From assembly GCA_029891345.1 (NCBI GenBank), contig CM056994.1, forward strand, positions 141,754,457 through 141,818,456: 64,000 nucleotides of DNA. The letters are read 5' to 3'. The position numbers and the translations under genes are program-made. Under the pieces are notes generated by a model. The model ran no database searches. It saw only the letters and a list, made by a program, of their open reading frames with translations, and had not been told where the DNA came from. The DNA comes from Dryococelus australis. Its lineage: Eukaryota; Arthropoda; Insecta; Phasmatodea; Phasmatidae. Below are positions 7,653 to 60,400 of the stretch, in pieces; the stretch's first letter is position 1; every line of letters begins with the position of its first letter.

Positions 7653-10600
7653 CAGTTAACGTATTGATAGTTATGTTATGTCGGGTGGTAACATATGCCA
7701 GAACGTCTCATCCTGCAAAAGACCGAGCTGAAATCTACAATGTATATTACAAAACTTTTAACATCGCTTCTAATATTATTTTTTTGTGTAATTAAGTAGT
7801 TCTTCTATACTGCAAACGAAAATCTAAAAAATAAAATAAAATAAAAATAACTTCTTGGTAGTAAAGGAAAGTAATATTTCCATAAAACATAAACATATGA
7901 AGAATATTTATTCGCAACAAAAATTTCTTTATCTAACATTATCTTTGAATTAAGTAATATTGTGCAACTGTAAACAAAAGAGAGGTAACGAAATATTTTT
8001 CTTTGTTGTATAGAAAACTTGGAATTTATTGGTTTACGGTGTATTCAAAAACATTTACCTATATAAATTTTCACTTTTACGATCTTTAAACATCGTTACA
8101 TTATTTTCACTTAGCATATGTTCAGGTAGTTTTAATCAATAAAAATGTATTATCAACATTGTGTCGGAAGATCTTATGTTTAAAATTCCCAGGCCACCAT
8201 TCTTCAGCGTTAGGACAGAAAGCAGTGGTTTCCAATTGACAGCTTACTCACGTGATGTGTCAACAATTATTTCCATAACAGTGTTTACTGGCTGCAAATT
8301 AACGAATGTTTTGTAAAAAAAAATACCAGGTAATGTCAAAGTATTGAGATTTCTCTTAACACATTATATTCGTTTTTGCATACAAAAATGTCCGGTATTA
8401 CTGAACGTTGTGATAAAAATTTACGGTCCTCGGAGCTGCCGATTTCCGACTTAGCGATGAAGTAAACCAATAACAATGGAAATCGCTTCCATAACTTGCA
8501 AGATGTGTGATGCAAGTAGTCGCGACCGACATTGCATTTACCACCGAGTTCGCTGGATATCATCTAGCTATATTTTTATTCAATAGGTCCGTGATATCAA
8601 TATATGTTTTATTACCGATACAATTTAATTAAGTTATATATTGACTTTTTCTAAATATTAACATTATTTAGGATATAAAAGTTTCTGTATCTTCCAATAA
8701 TTTACTGCACTTCAAAATTCTTCCCGAAAGTTACTTATATTACGTGGGATTTGACATTTTTGTCATAATTGGAGATCCGAAAATTTCGCTGCTTGAGCCG
8801 TCGGAAAGAGTCGTTTGTGCATTCCAGCATTAGACCATGTGATATAGGATTGAGTTATTTGTTTCTTTGTAGGTTCCTTACAATCTGGGAAGTCGCTAGG
8901 GGCGTGCCTAACGAACCGTGGTCCAACAGAAGCAGAAACTTAAACGAAGATGTGCTTGATGTTTAACTTAAAGTTAGATAAATTCGTGAAATTTCCGTGT
9001 TATAGTTATAACTAAACTATAATTGATAGTTCAGATATATGTATGTTTTTGCGAATTTTATATGCCTGCGTCAGTTTTTTCTTGAACATTCACTAGAAGA
9101 TTCCAGTCTACTCTTATCACTGGCACATCGCCAATGTAGTAGTTGTGTGCAAATATTCCCAGATATCGTTAGCAAAGTACACCAAGAAACAATAATTTAA
9201 AGTGTGTACTAACTGATAATTAGAGTGCAGCCGGACATGTATGAATACATGACGATAACTTCGCGTGATTGGTTGAAATTATGCCCACAGAAGGCTTTCT
9301 TCATACTACTTGTTTTATTTTCCTCGTTAACATCTCCGCTTTTATACTGGATGCAGGAGGTAATTTTGGAGTGGGGAAGAACTTGAACAACAATCCAAAC
9401 TAACGTAACATAATTTAAAAAGACAGGAGTGCTCTTGGCGTACCCAGTTAGTGGACACGGCCTCGTGATCAAATTTTCTAAACGGTCTCGACTACCAAGG
9501 TCGTCTACCGGAAACAGTTTTAACTTTCGGTACAGCGAGAGGTGGTACAATATTGTTGCATAGTGGTAGGGAAAAAACCACAATATGCTGTAAAGATTTG
9601 CTGAAATAATTTTTTAATTGATTTAAAGGAAGTCAACCTCTGCAATATTTCCAAAATAATTTCACTGATTCACATGGCTAAGTTAACTGTAATTACAGGA
9701 ACCGTAATTTAGTTTTAAATCAATTACATATGTTCGATAACACGCTCTTGTATTCGGCGCTGACTTTTATATAGCCAAATTTATCTTATCGGACCTGCAA
9801 GATAGAAATAGCGAGCGAGAGAGAGACAGAGAGTCACTAAATATTTGTATCCAACAGATAATAAAAGATAAGTTCTGCTGCTTGGATCAAACTGTTCAGA
9901 AAATTGTGCACTTCATTTAGGAAAAAAATCGTTTAATATCACTGGACCATTAACAAGCATTTTGAAAATTTTAGGTAATAAAAAGCACGTGTATTGACGT
10001 GTTGGGTGCAATTTAAATAAAGGCGTCTGACAATACTGGATAATTGCATATATACCAAGTAGGTACGCCAATATACGTCTGTTTTCTTTCTTCTCACTTC
10101 GGTTATTGAACCTGTCAGCGCTAATAAATTGTCAATACACAAATTTTTTATGGACAGAACATAAACAGACATAAACAAAAAATAATGATCAGCACGAATA
10201 AATCGCGAGAGTACAACGGTTGCCACACAGTAACGTCATATCCCGACGTGTTCGATTTGCGTTTAATTCGGTCTGTTTACGCGGATGTACCACTAGGAGG
10301 CGTACATGCACCTCCATCATTCATATCTGCAAATTGCCGAATAAGGAATGAGGTTAGAGTTCATAGTCGGAGGCTTCTTTGGCAAATATTCTATACTTTA
10401 TGAAGTAGTGCTTCTTCAAGAACTACTTCTCTGACGCATGAATTCATAAAATCATTACTTGACTAAGTTATTGTTGTATAAGCAATGCTTATTTAGGATA
10501 AGTTGTGATTGGTGAAGTATGGAAATAAGTATTTGTATATTATCAGTACCAACATAACATAGATAAATTTGCCACTTTATTTACAACAGTCACTCAGAAG

Positions 10601-27365: not shown

Positions 27366-28350
27366 GCTGGGACTAGGGTTATAAAATGTAAATAACTTGC
27401 GCATGTGTACGAATAAATATCTTGTTGTGGTTATATTTATTTCATTTATTGTATTGCATTTCATGTATTGCTATTATATTTTAAGTTTTAAATTTGAAGT
27501 GTTTATTTTCAATATATTATTTATTTGGTCTTAGTATATATTTTTTTTACTTTCTCTGAATTATTTTCAGAGTTTTTTCAAATATTCATGGATGTGCAAT
27601 AATTTTTTTTATTGCCATAACTACATATAATTTTTTTTTTTTCCATATAGGCATATAGGCAACTCATTAGTTTTTTTACTATCCGAGAATTTTTTGATTA
27701 GATATTTCATTTACGTGTAATGTTATATGTCCATAGACATGGAATAAAATTTTTTTACTATAGTCACATTTACATATAATTTTTTTCATATATGATATTT
27801 ATTAATTAATTTTTTTATTATAACAAACTTTTTAATACAAATTTTTCACATTAAAAAACTTTTTTGCTATCCTACACTTATATATTTTTTAAATATTTTA
27901 TTTACATGTAGGGACTTTGTTACTCACAATGAACTTACAATAATTTTATTCCCCCTTTGTTGAACATGGAATATTGCGTACCCTTATGATATGATTTGCG
28001 AGGACTTGTAAGTTGTTTTCCATGCACAATCTCTTAATCACACATATCAGTACACAATATACCCAACCTTTTACAGCTTAACTTATCCATGATGTAGTCA
28101 CCATTGCTGTCCACTTTTGTCGTATGGATTCCACACACACTTGTTTAGGATTTTGTATATCTTTCGTCTGACATTATACCCTTAATTACTTTTCATTTAA
28201 TAACTAATAAACTCACTTTTATTAGACACCCACTTAACTTCACCGAATTTCAACTCTATTCATCGCCAGACCCCTTTACACCTCCCCCCTTCCAGTCAGA
28301 CTTATTTTCCCATTTAGTTCAGTAAAGGAACAAATAATTCTGGCCTGATA
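27366..28350. other. AT-rich DNA with spaced T-tracts
   Basis: Between 27535 and 27900 runs of six to twelve T recur about every 60-70 bases, often as TTTTTTTACTAT, separated by ATTTACATATAA-like spacers. There is no gene. The outer left end of the next transposon may lie near 28240-28350. Confidence 0.5.
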
Positions 28351-28521
28351 AGGAAATAATTGCACCATAAATGATTTTTGTGCCATGGTGTCAGAAAATG
28401 TGTATCTTATTATGGACTTAAAGTCCATAGTCGTCTTCTTTGGGTAGTATCCGCCATCTTTGAAAATGGCGGCTAACATCAGTTTTTCCCAAAAATCTCG
28501 AAAATTATTTGTCATATGAAA
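28351..28521 (+). repeat. Left terminal inverted repeat
   Basis: It pairs with 34100-34269 in reverse complement. The best-conserved core is CCATAGTCGTCTTCTTTGGG (28427-28446). It includes the inverted AAGTCCATAG-type and GCCATCTTTGAAAATGGCGG blocks. Confidence 0.85.
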
Positions 28522-28660
28522 AAAATTAGGCAAAAACATCCCTTACAAAACTGCCTAAAAGGAAGTTGCTTGCCAATTTTCGCGTATAACGAACTGTTTC
28601 CGCACAACTAACAGTTGAGAATAACCCCAACATGTGTTTATTGTAAACTAGAGGACCCAG

Positions 28661-28696
28661 CCCGTGACCTTTTTTTTTTTTGTATTGTCACGGGGC
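28661..28696 (+). repeat. Hairpin with CCCGTGAC/GTCACGGG arms
   Basis: CCCGTGAC and GTCACGGG pair exactly around a T-rich loop of about 20 bases. It lies just before the minisatellite. The opening words ACTAGAGGACCCAGCCCGTG, together with the ACAGACAGACAGAG tract near 29795, resemble the two ends of a common insect short repeat. A secondary insertion spanning 28650-29850 is therefore possible. Confidence 0.55.
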
Positions 28697-28804
28697 CAGA
28701 ATAGTTACTGTGTTAGCAAATTTGGTTATCATACAAAGACTATAAGAAATATTGCATATATACATATATATAAAGGTTATAATGAAATTATGTGAAATTT
28801 AAGC

Positions 28805-29525
28805 GACTGCGGTTCCATTTAATATTTCTCTATCCACTTGGCCACTGCGGACCCACTTAACATAGTTGTATCCACTGAGCCACAAAGGCCCCACTTAATA
28901 TAGTTATCCACTGAGCCACTGCGGCTCCACTTGGAATCTCTCTATCCAATGAACTATTAAGGCCCCATTTTATATATATAAATCAACTTGGCCTCTGTGG
29001 CACCACTTGATATCATTCTATCCACTAAGCCACTGTGACCCCTCTTAAAATGGTTCTATCCGCTGACACTATGGCCCCACTTTGAATCGCTCTATTCACT
29101 GAGCCTTTGCGGCCCCACTTGGAATCTCTCTATCCACTGAGCCACTAAGGACCCACTTGGAATAGCTCTACCCACTGAGCAACTAAGGCACTACTTGGAA
29201 TATCTCAATCCACTGAGCGACTAAGACCCCATTTGATAAAGTTCTATCCACTGAGCCATTTCGGCCCCACTTGGAATCTCTCTCTATCCACTAAGCCACT
29301 GAGGCCCCACTTGGAATCGCTCTATCAACTTAGTCACTCCAGCCCCACTTGGAATCTTTCTATCCACAGAGCTACTAAGGCACCATTTAGATGTATATCT
29401 ATCTACTTGGCCATTGTGGTCCCACTAAGCCACTGCAGCCCCACTCAACATAGATCTATCCACTGAGCTACAAAACCCCCACTTGGAATCGCACTATCCA
29501 CTGAGCCACTCTGGACCGACTTAAT
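28805..29525 (+). repeat. 38-bp minisatellite, about 19 units
   Basis: The unit reads TCTATCCACTGAGCCACTAA then GGACCCACTTGGAATAGC, with variants such as TGCGGCCCCACTT and GCTCTATCC. Units differ at several positions each and some are shortened. The array fills most of the space between the left TIR and the gene. The 77-codon frame at 29233-29466 is repeat-derived. Confidence 0.9.
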
Positions 29526-29917
29526 TAACTCAACGTTAAAGTGAGACATTTAAAGTAAACAAAAATGATATTCCGTTACCTTCATATTTCTTTGCAAATT
29601 TCTCTATGCATTAACACAAAACTTTTCATAGGGAAAAAATAATTTAAAAATGAGTTTTTAGGGTAAAAGTTAATGATTGCATAATCCAATCTTGTTGAAA
29701 TTCGAACTTGCCCTCTATTTTACTCTGAGGATTCACTGAGCAAAATTTGAAGAACTTCTGTTGAGTTTCAACGGACTAAGAGGTATTAAAGACGCACAGA
29801 CAGACAGAGATCGTCTACTTATTATACATGATAATTAAGTGCGCATTCCTTGCAGTTGCGAAACAACAGCTAACTCATTTTGTTTCTGTTTCAGGTGAAG
29901 AAATGTGAATTACAGCT

Positions 29918-32900
29918 ATGGAATCGGCTACTAATGAGGCAGTTAAGTGTGCATTTTACAAATGCTGTTTGAATAATGGTGAGCCAGTTGCGAGGTTAGG
30001 TCAAGAAAGATGTCCAATCAATCTTCTGTGCAGCTGATGAAAGAGATGTCTATAAATGTTGTAGTTGGTCGAAAAGTTCATAATGATTACAGGAAAGACT
30101 TTTATAACAGAACAAGGATTGAAGCTGAAAAGAAGAGGAAGAGAAATGAGGATAACAACTGCTGGAATTACTCTAAAGTCGAGTTACTATCATCTAAAAG
30201 AACCAACAATGTGCATTTTCTGTGGAAGGGAAGCTATTCCAGATCTTCGCCATACAGACCGATTGCAGACACAGGTAATAAATCTTCGCTCATTAGAGTT
30301 AAGGAAATTGTAATTAAGACTTGTCATGGGAGAAATCGTGAATGGGGTGTGAGTGTCTTAGGGAGAGTGAACACAACTGTTTCAGGTATACATTCTCCTG
30401 ATGGTGTATATCACAGGGGATGTTCGACAAACTTCCGTACAGGAAAATACAAGCCAAAACAGTTTTATTCGATCTTAAAAGAAGACGTAGAACTCAAAAG
30501 GCAAAAACTGATAGGCAGACCTCCAGACACTATTAGAATCGAATCCTTAAAGGTTGTTTGTGAAATGTTTGAGAAGTTTGAAGATGGTCAAAAAACACTG
30601 CCATATTTTTCTGATATGATGAAAGAACTCTTAGATGTAATCGACTTACAACCATACACAACATAACACATGAAGAATCTTTTACAAGAAACTTATGGTG
30701 AAAATATTATAATTGGAAATGTTTCGGGAATAGTAAATGTAACATTTAGAGAAACTGCAGAATCAATACTTCAAGGTTATCATCAACAACCCAAAGAAGA
30801 CGACATAGAAAAATAAAAGGAAATGCTTTTACAGGTGGTGGCAAAGATAATCAAAAATGAAATAAAATAAAAGAGTACCCCTTCAGATATGTACCCTGAC
30901 TTAAGCAACTTTTCTGTGGAGACTTCTCTTGAATTTCTTTCTCCTTCTTTAAGGACACTTCTTTAATCCATTATGCCAGAAAACAACTTAGAAGCTGCTG
31001 CTATTGGCCAGGCTCTGATTCAAGCATGCTGACCAAGGGCAGTAATTAAACCACTTCAACTAGCTATGGGTATTCAAATGCATCATCACTAAATATCTCG
31101 CTTTCTTATTGACAAACTTAATAAACTTAGATTCTGTTCATCTTACCATGAGGTAAGACAATTTGAAAAAAAAAATGTGCAGCACAGCTAACTGACCAGA
31201 AACCTATGTAAGTAGACTCTAAAAGTTTTCATCAATTTGTGGCTGACAATGTTGATAATGACATATGAACTATAGATGGGAAAAAATATTTTCATGGACT
31301 GGGAATTATTGCATGCATCACACCAAAACTACAAAAAAGAAGTGAACCAGTTCCAAGAAGAGATGTTTCCCTTGAAGATGTAAGAAAGGTTGATGGTATT
31401 CCATTTCATTACTTTCAAGAATCTCAGAATAAGAAATTTATGTTTGATTCACTTTCTTCACCTACTGTTTCAGAACAAATTATCACAACAAATATGTTAC
31501 GGTATATCTCATGGTTTTTCCACGAAATTCATCCCACATGGTCAGTTAAAATGCAAGATATTTATACAGGAAATAAATATTCAGGAAGAGCTGAGATAGT
31601 ATTTATTCCTATGATTGGCCATAACACTAGTGATCCGTCGTGCATATACTCAACACTTCTCTTCATTTGCTCAGAAGCTTCAAGATGCAGGAAGAAAGCT
31701 ATAGTTACCTTTCACCAACCTCTCTATTGGAAAAGCGAAATTATTATTAATAGTGAACCAACCGATAGCGCTCTAAAATCTTTTATATTACTGCTCGGAG
31801 GTTTCCGTCTGAGAATGAGCTTCATTTCGAGCATTGTTACTATCATGGAAGCTCTGGATTGTTTGAAATTCATTAAACTGTTAAACCTCAGGCTGTCAGC
31901 AACATTTTGAGTGGTAAATTAGTCTCTAGGACTATTCGTGCCCACTTTATGGTGGATTTGGCTCTTAACTCGTTGGATTTGTGTATTGACATTCAGCAAT
32001 GATGACAGTAATATAGAAGATAAAATATTAGGATTTCAATATGTCAAGGTACTATATGAAGAAAGTTTGAATGAAAGTATTTTAATACAAGAAATTGCAA
32101 CATCGCCGTCTCTTAAAAGCATAGTCACAACAGTAGAAACATGGAAGAATTCAGTGGACAGCAGAACTGTTCATGTATGGTTCCAGTACTTGGAAATGGT
32201 TTTTTATTTTAAGAAGTTTCTTGATGGCTGAAAGAACCAGAGACTGGGCTTTGCATTTGAAATACATACTGCGTATGATGCCTTTCCTTGCAGCTGCTGG
32301 CCATAACATATACCAAGTCAACTTACATCTATTCGCAAGAAATGAAGAGGGATGCAATTTATACTAGAAGACTACTTTATTATTTCATCAAAGTACACCA
32401 TTTCGGAAAGAAAAAGAACTCACCAATATTGTAAACGGAGTGACTGCTTCTGAAAATGTTAATGTTGACGAATCTAATAAAGTTGGGGTAACTGTCCTGT
32501 TAAAATGGCTGGAAATTTTTCAGATATGTTCTCATTTACGAAGGCGGACCAGGTAATTACAATGACTTGTAGAAAATCCATACACACAAAGAATGGATAT
32601 TTCAGGATGGAGCACAGCCAGCTTTTTCAGATACTAATAGTTGTTGCTTTGAAAGGAGGGATGAACTTGAAGAATGTAATGACACATGAGTTGTGTTCAA
32701 TTCCTCTAGCTTTATTTGAAGATTGTGATATCCTTAGACTAGAAAATAAAGCAACACTGTCACATGCTTTATGGAGCATAGGTAAACCATCAGCAGACAT
32801 ACCTTGTCTTCAGGATTGTAAATATGTAATCGATGACGGGTAGTTGCTTCATCAAGTTAGTTGGCCACTCAACAACACACTCAGATATGATTTTGATTCC

Positions 32901-33950
32901 TACATTTCTTATGTAAAAACACGCTTTAAAATTGCTATCATTGTATTCGATGGATATAATGGCAGTCCATGTATTAAGGACTGCACGCACTTAAGACAAA
33001 CAAATGGTTTATGCTTTTCTGATGTTCATCTCTCACCAGAAACGAAACTTTCGATGAATAAGGATGTGTTTTCCTCAACTATAATAACAAAGCCACATTC
33101 ATACATAATATGGGATTAGAGCTTAGTGCTGCACAATGTAAGGTTTTGTATGCGAATAGTGATGCAGACATATGCATAACAAGAACATCAATAGAAGAAT
33201 CAAAAATTGAAAATGTCCGTGTTGTTGGAAATTGCACTGATCTTCTCATTCTCCTGTTCAGTTTTTCCCTGCCGCATTCAACATCGTTGTATTTCAAAAC
33301 AGAAACTAAACTGTCGGATATCAAATCTTCAAAAGCAAGTCTTGGTGAACTTTCTAAATCCCTTCTTTTCGTCCATTCATTTTTTTGTTGTAATACCACT
33401 TCCAGGTTCTTTGGCTTTGGGAAACAGACGGCATTCTATCTTACGAAGAGCGATGCAACCTTTAAGAAAGCTGCTATGATTTTTAACACTGAAAATTTGT
33501 AAAAATAAGAAATCATTGCTGCTGGGGAACAAGTAACCACAAGAGTATACAAAGACCATAAAAATGAGTCTGTTCTCGTATTAAGAGTGAGAGTGTTTGA
33601 ACACAAAGTTTGTATATCAACTGATGTTGTCGGCCCTGAAACTCTTCCTCCTACACCTTCTGCAGTAAAGTACCTCTCCTTAAGGGCATATCCCCAAATC
33701 GTGGAATGGAAAGGATATTCTCGTTTAATGAGGGCAAAAAATTGTGGCAACTCAGGACTGCCATGTACTTCCCTATAATGACGGACATCAGGCCTGCTCC
33801 AGATAATATACTCAAAGTGTTTTTTTGTAACTGTAAAGAAAACTGTGAAACTCTGAGGTGCTCGTGCAAAAAAATATGGCCTGTTTTGTACTTCAATTTG
33901 TGGACAGTGTCAAGGAGTTAACTGTGACAGGAAAGGAAAGAACACTGAAC
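29918..33950 (+). pseudogene. Transposon-encoded XPG/FEN1-like (PIN-fold) nuclease and CXC-tail protein, frameshifted
   Basis: I recognise this as the high-copy animal 'uncharacterized protein' family of about 1200-1400 residues. A TTTCTGTTTCAG acceptor sits at 29883-29894, just before an ATG at 29918 (MESATNEAVKCAFYKCCLNN), so a 5' intron is likely. Blocks in order: KVHNDYRKDFYNRTRIEAEK (about 30079), TMCIFCGRE (30208), GVYHRGCSTNFRTGKYKP (30403-30456), FLIDKLNKLRFCSSYHEVRQ (31099), SGKLVSRTIRAHFMVDLALN (about 31910), AERTRDWALHL and AAAGHNIY (32230-32310), FDGYNGSPCIKDCTHLRQ (32948), NSDADICITRTSIEESK (33158), VVGNCTDLLILLF (33220), LLFVHSFFCCNTTSRFFG (33366), FCNCKENCETLRCSCKK (33824) and GLFCTSICGQCQGVNC (33880). 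The nuclease-core motifs expected as GEDTDLL and GCDTTS read GNCTDLL and CCNTTS, so key acidic residues are lost. Frame changes are frequent, for example around 30190-30310, 31910-31980 and 33780. Confidence 0.8.
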
Positions 33951-34099
33951 TTTACGAAGATGATATTTATAAACTCAGTTGTAGCGTATACAGTGGTGAT
34001 GATTCAACAATCATTTGTGACACAACGGTTGGTTCTATGCAAAAATTGGGAAGTAACTTTCTTTTATGAAATTTTGTAAGGAATGTTTATTGTCAAAAC

Positions 34100-34269
34100 G
34101 TTTTTCATGACAAATAGTGTATAAGATTTTTGGGAATAACTATTTTTGGGTGCCATTTTCCAAGATGGCGGACTTTCCCCAAAGAAGACGACTATGGACA
34201 TTTAGGTCATAATGAAATACATATTTTCTGACATCATAGCGCAAAATTATTTATGTTGTAATTATTTCC
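34100..34269 (-). repeat. Right terminal inverted repeat
   Basis: It is the reverse complement of 28351-28521 and carries CCAAAGAAGACGACTATGGA (34179-34198) and a CCATTTTCCAAGATGGCGG block. It follows the end of the gene by about 150 bases. Confidence 0.85.
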
Positions 34270-36373
34270 ATGTCATGTCTTATTTTTTCTCTACTACATT
34301 GGTTAGATCGTCAGTCAATCAGGAAATTTCTCCTACCCTCCTCCCCCCCAATAGCACACATATTCTAGCATATAAAAGGCATCGGGACGCGGTTGTCTGC
34401 TTGTTGCTGCCATTATCGCCGTCACTTGCTCACCTTAAGAGTGTAAAGTTGAATTTTCGTCTGTAATTTTAGGACATTAACACATTTTGTCCGAGATGTC
34501 ATAAAATCATTTTATCCATTATGGCATTTGGAAGGGTGCGCTTGCTTAGTGCCTCGGACAAACGGGACGATTTGCCAAAATAATTTCTCCTGGTCTACAC
34601 ACCTTACGAAATTTCGATCATATTTAAGTATTTGGTGGCATACCTACAACAGGACGAAGACATATGGGACTCCATGCAGTGCAAGGAGTGCTTCGAAGTC
34701 TGCACCACTTCCGTTCTGGACACTCCTCATTCCCAGAGCTGGTACAAGACGCGACATCGTGCAGCAGCAGTCACCACTGACACTACCTCCATTGGCGAAG
34801 GGGTCTGTACAGTGAAAAACATGAACTGCTCTGCAAACCAAGTGACCACAGCAATACCTTCTCCTCGACGATATGCGACAAACTGATTCCAGCACATAAG
34901 TGGTCCATACAGACTAATATCGCCAGCAGCAGTTGGTTGATGCCCCCCACAGCTACTCCCATCACATCACTACCACGATCTCAGATACACGAGGTGATGT
35001 ACACCAGCTCTTTCGAGCAGGTATTGTGAAGTGTTATTCCAATGCTATTCCTCGGATCCGCTGATTAGGCGACGCATGGTAAGAGGATGCTGTGAAAAAC
35101 ATAGAAACCTGTGGTTGTGTGGATTATTCGCGCCTCTACTAACCCTGGTGCATGCCTACAACCTAAACATAATGGACACTGAAGAACAGTCAGAAGAAGT
35201 TTTTATGGACAGAATCCAAAGCGATGGGGAAACCTGCTCAGTGTAAAACATGAGGATGGTTTACCCTTCCATGTAGCGCTGACGAACTGTTGGAGTTGAA
35301 CAATGGTGAAACATTCATCATTAAAGAGGACCTTCATCTTAACGACTAAGAACTACGACGAGGAGGGCAAGGAACAGTGTTTAGCTTCAGTGAAGAATGC
35401 TATGGCGAGATGCATAGACTCCTACCAGACAAAGAAACTAACACGATTCCGTTCGTCGAGCGGACCACGACTTATCGCAGCCTGCCGTGCAAGGTAACGA
35501 CAAGCTCACCAGACGAGATCGTGGAAGGATAGTAAAAATAATAAAGATATAAAGAAACGGTATTTCGAACAGAGCACCATAATGCGAAAAAAACTTATGG
35601 TTGTCTTAGGCACATCGTACATGTTGGCATGTGTAAACGAAAAACAGCAGTGCATTTTTCATACAAAAATCTTTGTGTCTTAAAAATCATCTTGCTTGTC
35701 TATGTATGAGTAATACAAAAATTTGTTGCAACATAAATGCTGAACACAAAAATTACGTTACCAAAACTTGTTTTGCCTTTCAATGTAAACTAATATTGCC
35801 GAATATGTATATGAAAATATAAAAAAGTGTTTGACGAATCAAATATGCGTATAATTTTTAATCACATTTTACCTCTTATTTTATTTTTGTCATATACCCC
35901 ATCAATTCAGAGAAAGGCAGAAATTAAACTTATACAATATAGAGAAAAAATATGGCTAGAATTATTTTCTGAATATAAAGAATGTACACCATTTAGGTTA
36001 CTCGAGATGAATTTGCAAGCATGCATGAAAAGTCAGGCCAGCTGACCTCGTCAAAGTTTGAAACCATGCCAAGAGCAGTGTTAGCAGGTCTGCACCTGCA
36101 TGGTGTCTCGTGACTGCATGTGTATGTGATTTCATGTCGTTTTCACAAACTGAATTGTGTCAGATAGCCTAAGAAAGCACATAGAATTATCACAGGTTTG
36201 CACCCACTTGGTAACAGGTAACTGAAGTTAACTAAAGAGAACGAGTCAGCTGGCTTCCTGAGCAAACTCTGACCCAAAATGGAGGTGGAGTGAGAAAGAC
36301 ATATGTCAGGGGGAAGCCGTTATATCAAATCAGAGGAGAAGACTCGTGGTAATAGTTTTGTCACATCATCTCT
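34270..36373. other. Unassigned DNA, possible flank of the Polinton fossil
   Basis: 34500-35530 is higher in GC than its surroundings and open for 60-95 codons in several plus-strand frames, with no family I can name. 35540-36000 is AT-rich. The region could be outer genes of the Polinton-like element or unrelated sequence. Confidence 0.3.
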
Positions 36374-57400: not shown

Positions 57401-60400
57401 GTGGCCCTACCAGTCAAGACTTTAAATCTAGTCCACGCCCTATCCGTCAATGTCAGGTTACAGTCACCAGAGGGAGGTTGAATGTCCCAGCGTTAGTTGA
57501 AACCAGTGCGATGCATTGTTCAATAAATGAAAGTTTTCTTTATCAACTGGTCAAAAAGAAGATAGTGTCTAAGGGGCACGTAAGTGTCATGCCCGATAAA
57601 TGTTTGTGTATTGTGAATGCCGATGATATTAGATGTAATATGGTTGTTGGTTTGCATTTGTAAATAGGTAAATTCTCGTGGACCTTTCCCTATTGGGTTT
57701 CTTCCTAGTCTTGCTCAGAACTTAATATTGGGCTTGGAATTTCTGGGCAGGTCTAGAGCTGTTGTTAACTTTGATTAGGGCTGCCTGTCCTTTGGTTTTG
57801 CTCCTAACATTACAGTGGGTCTTCATGTGGAGGAAAGTCAGGCTGTTTTTTCCTCGGTTTTGGGTAATTCTATCAATCAGTTTCAGGCCCGATTAACAGG
57901 GCTGCACGAGGAGTTTAGCGATGTGATTTCCCCCAAAATCGGGATATGTGACGTCCTACTCTATAGGTTTTCATTAACTGATGACATCCCGGTTCGTGAT
58001 AGACACTTCATGTGCCCACCACCCAAGCTCCAGGCCTTCCGCGAGATAATAGATAAGCTTTTGGGTGCCAGCGTAATTGTTCCCTCTAAGTGGGATTATT
58101 GTTTGTCTGGGTTTCTTGCGAATAAGAGGGATAGCGACCAATACCATCTTGTGGTCAATCATTCTTTAATAAATAAGAAGATACATAAAGATCCCTTCTC
58201 TCTTCCCACAATTGATTGTGCTTTGCAACGTTTGTGCAAGGCACGAGTATTTTCCATGCTAGATTTGAACAATAGTTCCTACCAGTGTCTCTTGAATCCG
58301 TCATTTAGGACATATACCGCTTTCAGCACTCCTTGGAGTTAGTTTGAGTTTACAGCAATTCCCATGGTCTCTTACTTCGGTAGCCAGGCTTTGTCTCGTG
58401 TTCTGGATCATCTTTTGTCGGATTTCAAACACAATTTGGTTTTTAATTATATAGATGATATTATCGTCTACAGTAATGATTGGGACTTTCATCTGGTGCA
58501 TTTAAGACAGGTTTTGACCTGTATGCCTGAGTTAGGGCTTACAGTGAACCCAAAGAAGGTTACCTTAGGATCTCGCAAGGTAAAATTTTTGTGATATTTG
58601 CTCAGTGAAGGCCAACTTATGATAGACCCCGACAATGTCGCTCAAATTTTGGGTTTTCCATGCCCTCAGACGATTAAAGGCGTTCAGTAATATCTGGGGA
58701 TTATGGGCTGCTATGCCCAATTCATCAATCAGTATTCTTAGCTGGCGGCGCCCCTCAATAAGTTGAAGAAAAAAGAGGTGGAGTTTCACTGGAGTCCTGG
58801 CCAAGAGACTGCATTTATTAATCTTAAGCAGAGATTGTCGTCACCGCCCGCCTTGCACCTCCCTGATTTTTTTAAAAGGTTCGTTCTCCAGGTCGATGCT
58901 TCGTTAGTGGTGTTGGGTGCCATTCTGAGCCAACATGTTGAGGGTGGGTTAGCACCGATTGCCTTTGCCAGCCGCACCTTGACAGAGACGGAGAGTAGTT
59001 TGGGAATTTACGAAAAGGAAACACTGGCTTGTTTATTCGGCCTGGAAAAGTTTGCTCCATATATTGAACACGACCAATGTGACCTTTACACAGATAACCA
59101 GGCTTTATTGAGGGTCCTGACCCATCCTTAGCAATTGGGGAAGCTGGATCACTGGGTGTTGTGGCTCTCCATGTTTAGATTTAAGGTACATCACATTCGT
59201 GGTTCGAACAATCAGGTCGTCGACGCCTTGTCGCGAATGTTCGACACTGATGATTTTGAGTTGGAAGTTGGTAATCAGCCGGTAGCCAGGGTTGGGCTGA
59301 TGCAGGGTTCCAGTGGATTTTTTTTTTAAATTGTGTTAGGCCCATAAAGATGATTCATTTTGTTCACAGATCAGGCAAGATTTAATTTCGGGTGTAAATC
59401 TTCCCTATGTAGTGGAAAATGATGTCTTGTCTTTTTTTTCGGCAAGAGTGCTTGTGCTAGAAATATTGTGGTTCCTTTGTCCTTCAGGCTGATGGTGTTG
59501 ACTTACTACCATGACTCAGTTTTTGGGGGACATCGGGGAGTAAGCCGTACCTTCAATAAAATTGTTACCTATTTCGCTTGGCCAACTTTTTGTAAGGAGT
59601 TATCAGAATTTGTTAAGTCCTGCCATGCTTGTCAAAAATGCAAGCAGGCCCGCCAAACTAATTTAGGTCTAAAAATTGTTCAAATTCCTCGTGTGGCGTG
59701 GAAACTATCCATATTGATATCTTTGGCCTCTTATTAGATCTAAGAGAGGAAATATTTGTGTATTGATTTTTTTTAGATACATTTCCAATTTCTAACTTTA
59801 TTGCCTTTTTAGGAATATGAAGTCGTCGACGATTGTTGAAACCTTAAGTGATCAAGTCTGGAAACTCTTTAGTGCTCCTGCAGAAATACATACAGATAAT
59901 GATAGATATTTCAACTCGACAGTTTTTCAGAATATGTGTTTCAGGTGGTCAATCAACAATTTAAATTCTAGTCTATACTTCTCCTAACGAAACCAGGTTG
60001 AGCATTATAATAAGGATATTAAAGTCAGTTTCACGATTTTTTACAACCACGATCATTCCCTTTGGGTTCAAGATCTTGACCTAATCAATTTAGGATTCAA
60101 CGTTGCTCTCTATGGTTCAATAGGGGTCCCTCACTCTCTCCCCTTTTTAGGTCGTTCCCTGAGCCATCCTTTACTGAGAATCTGGGGTATTACTCCATTT
60201 CCATCTCCTCTTTCTGAAGCTGACCGGGATGAACTGCTCGAGCGGGTGCAGGTCAAGTTAGGTCAGATTAAGGATGCAGTTTGCACTCGTTTAAATAAGG
60301 TTAGGTCTCCTCCCCAATTCAAACCCGGTGACCTGGTTGTGTGCCGGAGTTTCTTCTTGGCAGACCTGAGTAACCGGCTTACAAGGAAATTGTTGCCCCA

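Follow-up and report, generated by a model that had tools for sequence, protein, structure and literature searches.

A probable AcademX transposon in Dryococelus australis with a gene joining a DDE/D transposase to an EXO1/FEN1-type nuclease

When a long, broken gene with nuclease-like features lies between inverted repeats, does it belong to the host or to a transposon, and what might the nuclease do there? The question is raised by a stretch of 64,000 nucleotides from Dryococelus australis (Phasmatodea; assembly GCA_029891345.1, contig CM056994.1, positions 141,754,457 to 141,818,456 of the forward strand), hereafter called the window. An earlier note, made from the sequence alone, had described a DNA transposon with long terminal inverted repeats (TIRs) encoding an XPG/FEN1-like protein with a cysteine-rich CXC tail. 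On its essentials that note was right, and the observation is confirmed. The element is probably a decayed autonomous DNA transposon of the cut-and-paste kind, assigned to AcademX, the nuclease-encoding branch of the Academ superfamily, in which the nuclease would take the role proposed below. The recognition of AcademX as a branch of Academ is reportedly due to Kojima in 2020.

Ends, target-site duplications and recurring units

Local alignment of the left arm (28321-28598) with the reverse complement of the right arm (34295-34024) scored 239, against a top score of 37.5 for 1000 composition-preserving random arms and of 40 for up to 1000 random window pairs (skipped draws uncounted). Since both null maxima lie so far below the observed score, the TIRs are genuine. 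Alignment with other genomic copies placed the ends of the whole element at 28315-34296 (5,982 bp), with a left TIR on the forward strand (28315..28598, beginning TAGTTCAG) and a right TIR on the reverse strand (34024..34296, ending ...CTACTA). The span of 28351..34269 proposed earlier therefore captured the element but stopped 36 and 27 bp short of its ends, and the inverted repeats, real as claimed, measure about 280 rather than about 170 bp.

Flank comparison identified a target-site duplication, CATT, on either side of the element (28311..28314 and 34297..34300). Other copies were examined in the assembly from which the window comes (3.415 Gb, 646 contigs). A 3- or 4-bp duplication was found in 11/11 copies with both ends set, nine of 3 bp and two of 4 bp, whereas left and right flanks taken from different copies agreed over at least 3 bp in only 2/110 pairings. 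The register of the ends (TAGT, not one base in or out) was picked with the flanks visible, and the 110 control pairs were read in the same register as every copy. In the subfamily of the window the duplications are CATT (window), TAC (L009), TAC (L010), TATA (L011), GAT (L012) and GTT (L013); in a second lineage they are CAA (L056), AGT (L057), AAC (L058), TGT (L059) and ATG (L060), so that the 11 copies show ten different sequences. L014-L021 were left out of this count because only one arm is present in each fetched stretch, and L053 for want of defined ends. The subfamily to which the window copy belongs has left ends reading TAGTACAG, the window copy itself having TAGTTCAG; in L056/L057 they read TAGTCCAG. 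Some ends are imperfect, with AAGT at the left of L010, TAGC at the right of L009 and a change near the right tip of L059.

A search with the left arm returned 20 matches in the assembly (20/20 candidates scored), two of them the window's own arms. Thirteen regions of the window's subfamily were fetched (L009-L021); judged by the best alignment per strand, both arms lie within the stretch in five of these and in the window, while the remaining eight (L014-L021) have one arm only. The TIRs thus recur adjoining further copies of the same gene, as the earlier note had suggested checking, and they do so as TIR-gene-TIR units with target duplications. This pattern supports a transposon-encoded product, and it speaks against the TIRs being a pair of miniature inverted-repeat transposable elements (MITEs) that flank the gene by chance. 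Copies of the gene that lack these particular TIRs do occur, but only as members of other lineages, which do not share this TIR sequence.

A transposase half and a nuclease half in one protein

Between the arms, pieces in all three forward frames jointly read as one long protein. The broken transposase-nuclease gene occupies 29918..34066 on the forward strand, with its ATG at 29918 placed by eye. It lies within the TIR-bounded ends, as had been claimed, and its 3' end slightly overlaps the right TIR. Eight open reading frame pieces of the window gave no meaningful Pfam match. Long open relatives were found, and in these the protein has the order N-terminal zinc-binding motifs, RNase H-fold DDE/D transposase, EXO1/FEN1/XPG-type nuclease and a CXC tail with nine cysteines. 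The counts given below come from an alignment of 60 relatives, with rows that have gaps at a position excluded; all domains lie on the forward strand of the window.

The transposase domain corresponds to 31220..32300, with the first Asp at about 31245, the second catalytic site at about 31714 and the Glu at about 32230. In P0060 numbering, the residue is acidic at D29 in 57/57 rows, at D32 in 57/57, at D185 in 59/59 and at E378 in 59/60 (48 E, 11 D and 1 T); the first catalytic Asp may be either D29 or D32. The DDE set is complete in 56/57 rows that hold D29, D185 and E378. A predicted model has the strand-helix order of an RNase H-like fold and a helical stretch ahead of the last acidic residue. 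While Foldseek returned 0/188 matches at E <= 0.001 for the transposase half, a second look with VIA-align matched the P element and Hermes, with the P element ranked first, and the modelled RNase H fold is nearest to these two transposases. In P0002, residues 629-925 matched Pfam DUF6589 at the borderline (E 3.5e-6; 26.4 bits, the cut-off being 27). The match falls on the latter portion of the transposase domain, a hint that DUF6589 belongs to the core of this transposase; the corresponding match in P0026 was weak (E 0.05). A DUF6589 search of the Dryococelus genome gave no match but is uninformative, the control genomes being equally silent, and no mention of DUF6589 was found in the literature searched.

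Downstream lies the nuclease domain (32810..33780), recognized by matches to EXO1, FEN1 and XPG and by its conserved acids. The XPG/PIN-like region of the earlier note is borne out by these matches. All seven nuclease positions are acidic in 58/60 aligned relatives. Six of them are matched in an alignment to EXO1 D78, E150, D152, D171, D173 and D225; D682 we take, by motif, to correspond to EXO1 D30. In all 57 aligned rows with the DDE positions, the nuclease positions are present downstream. P0095, which stands outside the 60-row alignment, is rearranged.

Both termini are rich in conserved cysteines, as the earlier note had it, although the DDE/D transposase half between them was overlooked. 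In the N-terminal region (29918..30450, from the relatives' alignment and by eye in the window), relatives carry two CxxC...HxxC zinc-binding motifs. In P0001 numbering the first comprises C8 (42/42), C11 (44/44), H53 (46/46) and C56 (46/46), and the second C97 (47/47), C100 (47/47), C132 (46/47), H161 (48/48) and C164 (45/48). It is followed by the equivalent of a helical, winged-helix-like domain (30510..30755), which is a weak assignment. The tail was located at 33827..33940 from the alignment of relatives; six of its cysteines are kept in 57/57 rows and the other three in 57/58, 58/59 and 57/58. P0100, a distant relative, falls just under the cut-off of the Pfam TCR (CXC) model (E 1.2e-4, 22.7 bits against 23.5), and the tail of one relative had 0 matches among PDB sequences.

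Among relatives that have a name at all, those from Bradysia, Lytechinus, Argopecten, Nematostella and Frankliniella and among JGI entries are named 'uncharacterized', 'predicted' or 'hypothetical protein' at source, much as the earlier note had said of the family, and a few (P0026, P0035, P0062) '5'-3' exonuclease'. Treating such proteins as transposases would tidy annotation. Pattern scans with alignment A1 picked out 43 viral-contig and 34 prokaryote-genome stretches, of which none was confirmed as a relative, and tblastn of one window piece against plasmids found none.

Kinship with Academ and a possible role for the nuclease

In AcademX the nuclease belongs to the XPG type, although the printed description says just nuclease. 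Assignment to this branch was made by features as described in print. The three features compared were all found: a DDE/D transposase, a nuclease encoded in the element and 3-4-bp duplications. At near 6 kb the size agrees as well, and no difference appeared among the features compared. A passage of PMC10045372 gives duplications of 3-4 bp for AcademX and of 9-10 bp for AcademH, linked to an encoded nuclease or helicase, respectively; part of PMC9587614 counts Academ among the superfamilies with a DDD/E transposase; and an excerpt of PMC10294476 reports a mean Academ length of 5,565 bp in a curated bivalve library (100 elements). In the excerpts of the literature searched, AcademX is described only in PMC10045372. 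Academ is the best match, as the earlier note had sensed, and its suggestion that the architecture may be under-described is only in part right, since the passage of PMC10045372 already describes an Academ branch that encodes a nuclease and makes 3-4-bp duplications, the kind that this element fits. Added here are the exact ends, the duplications, the EXO1/FEN1 assignment, the half of the protein with a P/hAT-like transposase and, in the same genome, a related lineage that is young.

Other families agree less well. AcademH belongs to the same superfamily by the published scheme, but membership was rejected given the 3-4-bp duplications and because a scan of 11 proteins found no helicase model at E <= 1. 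The P element and hAT transposases (Hermes) share the RNase H fold and the helical stretch that precedes the final acidic residue. Their duplications are of 8 bp, which excludes membership, and they are not known to carry a fused flap nuclease. Kolobok duplicates TTAA, a sequence seen in none of the copies, and was likewise rejected. Tn7 TnsA-TnsB resembles the present protein in outline only, as a DDE transposase with a second nuclease, and no kinship is claimed; TnsA, a nuclease of restriction type, is a protein of its own.

The DNA itself shows where the element ends, that its target is duplicated, how the domains are ordered, that the catalytic acids are conserved and that the element has multiplied in the genome; from these we infer what binds DNA, how the cuts are divided between the domains and in which sequence they follow. 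The long TIRs would be bound by the N-terminal part of the protein, through its zinc-binding and helical domains. Cutting of the transferred strand at the TAGT ends, and joining of these ends to the target with a stagger of 3 or 4 bp, would fall to the P/hAT-like RNase H domain, while the EXO1/FEN1-type domain fused to it would take away or trim the 5' (non-transferred) strand or flaps at the ends. That a single polypeptide performs both excision steps, with the flap nuclease required to finish the second strand, is a tentative proposal to which we give somewhat less than even chances. If true, it would represent a route of second-strand cleavage distinct from hairpinning and from TnsA-type endonucleases. 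With two near-fully kept catalytic sets in one protein, such work-sharing between DDE and flap nuclease is directly testable.

Alternatively, the nuclease of an Academ-type transposon could be a passenger acting outside transposition, for example by helping repair or by blocking host defence. Two points weigh against our proposal and favour a passenger: P element and hAT transposons cut and paste without a flap nuclease, and at L052-L055 tblastn detected no nuclease part next to the transposase part in the 9.5 kb fetched. The completeness of the seven acids in nearly all relatives, and their presence after the DDE positions in every row that holds these, argue the other way, and we think a passenger unlikely. 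A separate, unnamed superfamily that came to resemble AcademX by gaining a similar nuclease is more improbable still: kinship was judged from features, and Pfam offered only the borderline and weak DUF6589 matches, but every AcademX feature compared fits. Finally, a host DNA-repair exonuclease family lying by chance between a MITE pair, as the name '5'-3' exonuclease' might hint, has practically no standing, given the recurring units with target duplications, the internally deleted derivatives that keep the same ends (L058-L060, below) and a P0001 nuclease piece that matches at least 150 places in one genome (the best 150 of 1420 candidates all scored as matches, in separate places by eye).

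The window copy and its relatives in the genome

The window copy is dead, and less damaged copies exist elsewhere in the genome. Its gene contains several frameshifts and stops, and read by eye the catalytic positions of both domains are not all acidic. Some 300 bp are gone near 32343, from a well-conserved stretch past the helix of the catalytic Glu that is kept in L009, L012-L015 and L019-L021. About 1.18 kb (28648..29830, boundaries within a few bases), carrying a degenerate 38-bp minisatellite, was inserted later and does not belong to the original element: the insertion point is uninterrupted in L009, L010, L012, L015 and L019, and the insertion is also absent from L011 and L013, which have small gaps of their own. 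The earlier note had mentioned neither this insertion nor the deletion, nor a target duplication. The insertion comprises about 14 degenerate 38-bp units, and related pieces occur at L016:3600-3991, L052:6517-6813 and L053:7552-7624.

Over longer internal stretches, members of the subfamily are about 83-88% identical to the window, with L013 at 75-80% and L021 at 79-80%. For the window's transposase piece, the best 150 of 696 candidates were scored as matches, at least seven of them being second pieces of one copy. Identity between L056 and L057 is 97.6% across 5.76 kb, and the two have their own long TIRs (>500 bp), starting TAGT; in L056, gene and TIRs occupy nearly all of 5.98 kb. When the 81-base end of L056/L057 was searched, the best 40 of 619 candidates were all 99-100% identical, L056 included. 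Three of these matches were fetched (L058-L060), and all 3 proved to be derivatives, 1.8-2.4 kb long, that keep these ends but have lost internal sequence. By its sequence this lineage looks young, the outcome of a recent burst, and with its deleted derivatives and 99-100% identical ends it offers natural substrates for testing how the DDE and nuclease domains share the work. In pieces, L058-L060 are about 95-99% identical to its full-length copies; relative to L056, the interior of L058 and L059 is reversed in orientation, with the outermost bases swapped.

No TIR was found around the gene in L052, L054 or L055. At L053:2860-6169 a truncated gene of another lineage lies between imperfect 107-bp inverted repeats, which are candidate TIRs. 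Inverted repeats of 35-43 bp that share one sequence type occur at L053:5784-6020, L054:841-883 and 7731-7773, and L055:8229-8476, and probably represent an unrelated small transposon. Elsewhere in the window, a 187-amino-acid open frame at 57779-58342 resembles, by eye, a piece of a Gypsy-type reverse transcriptase.
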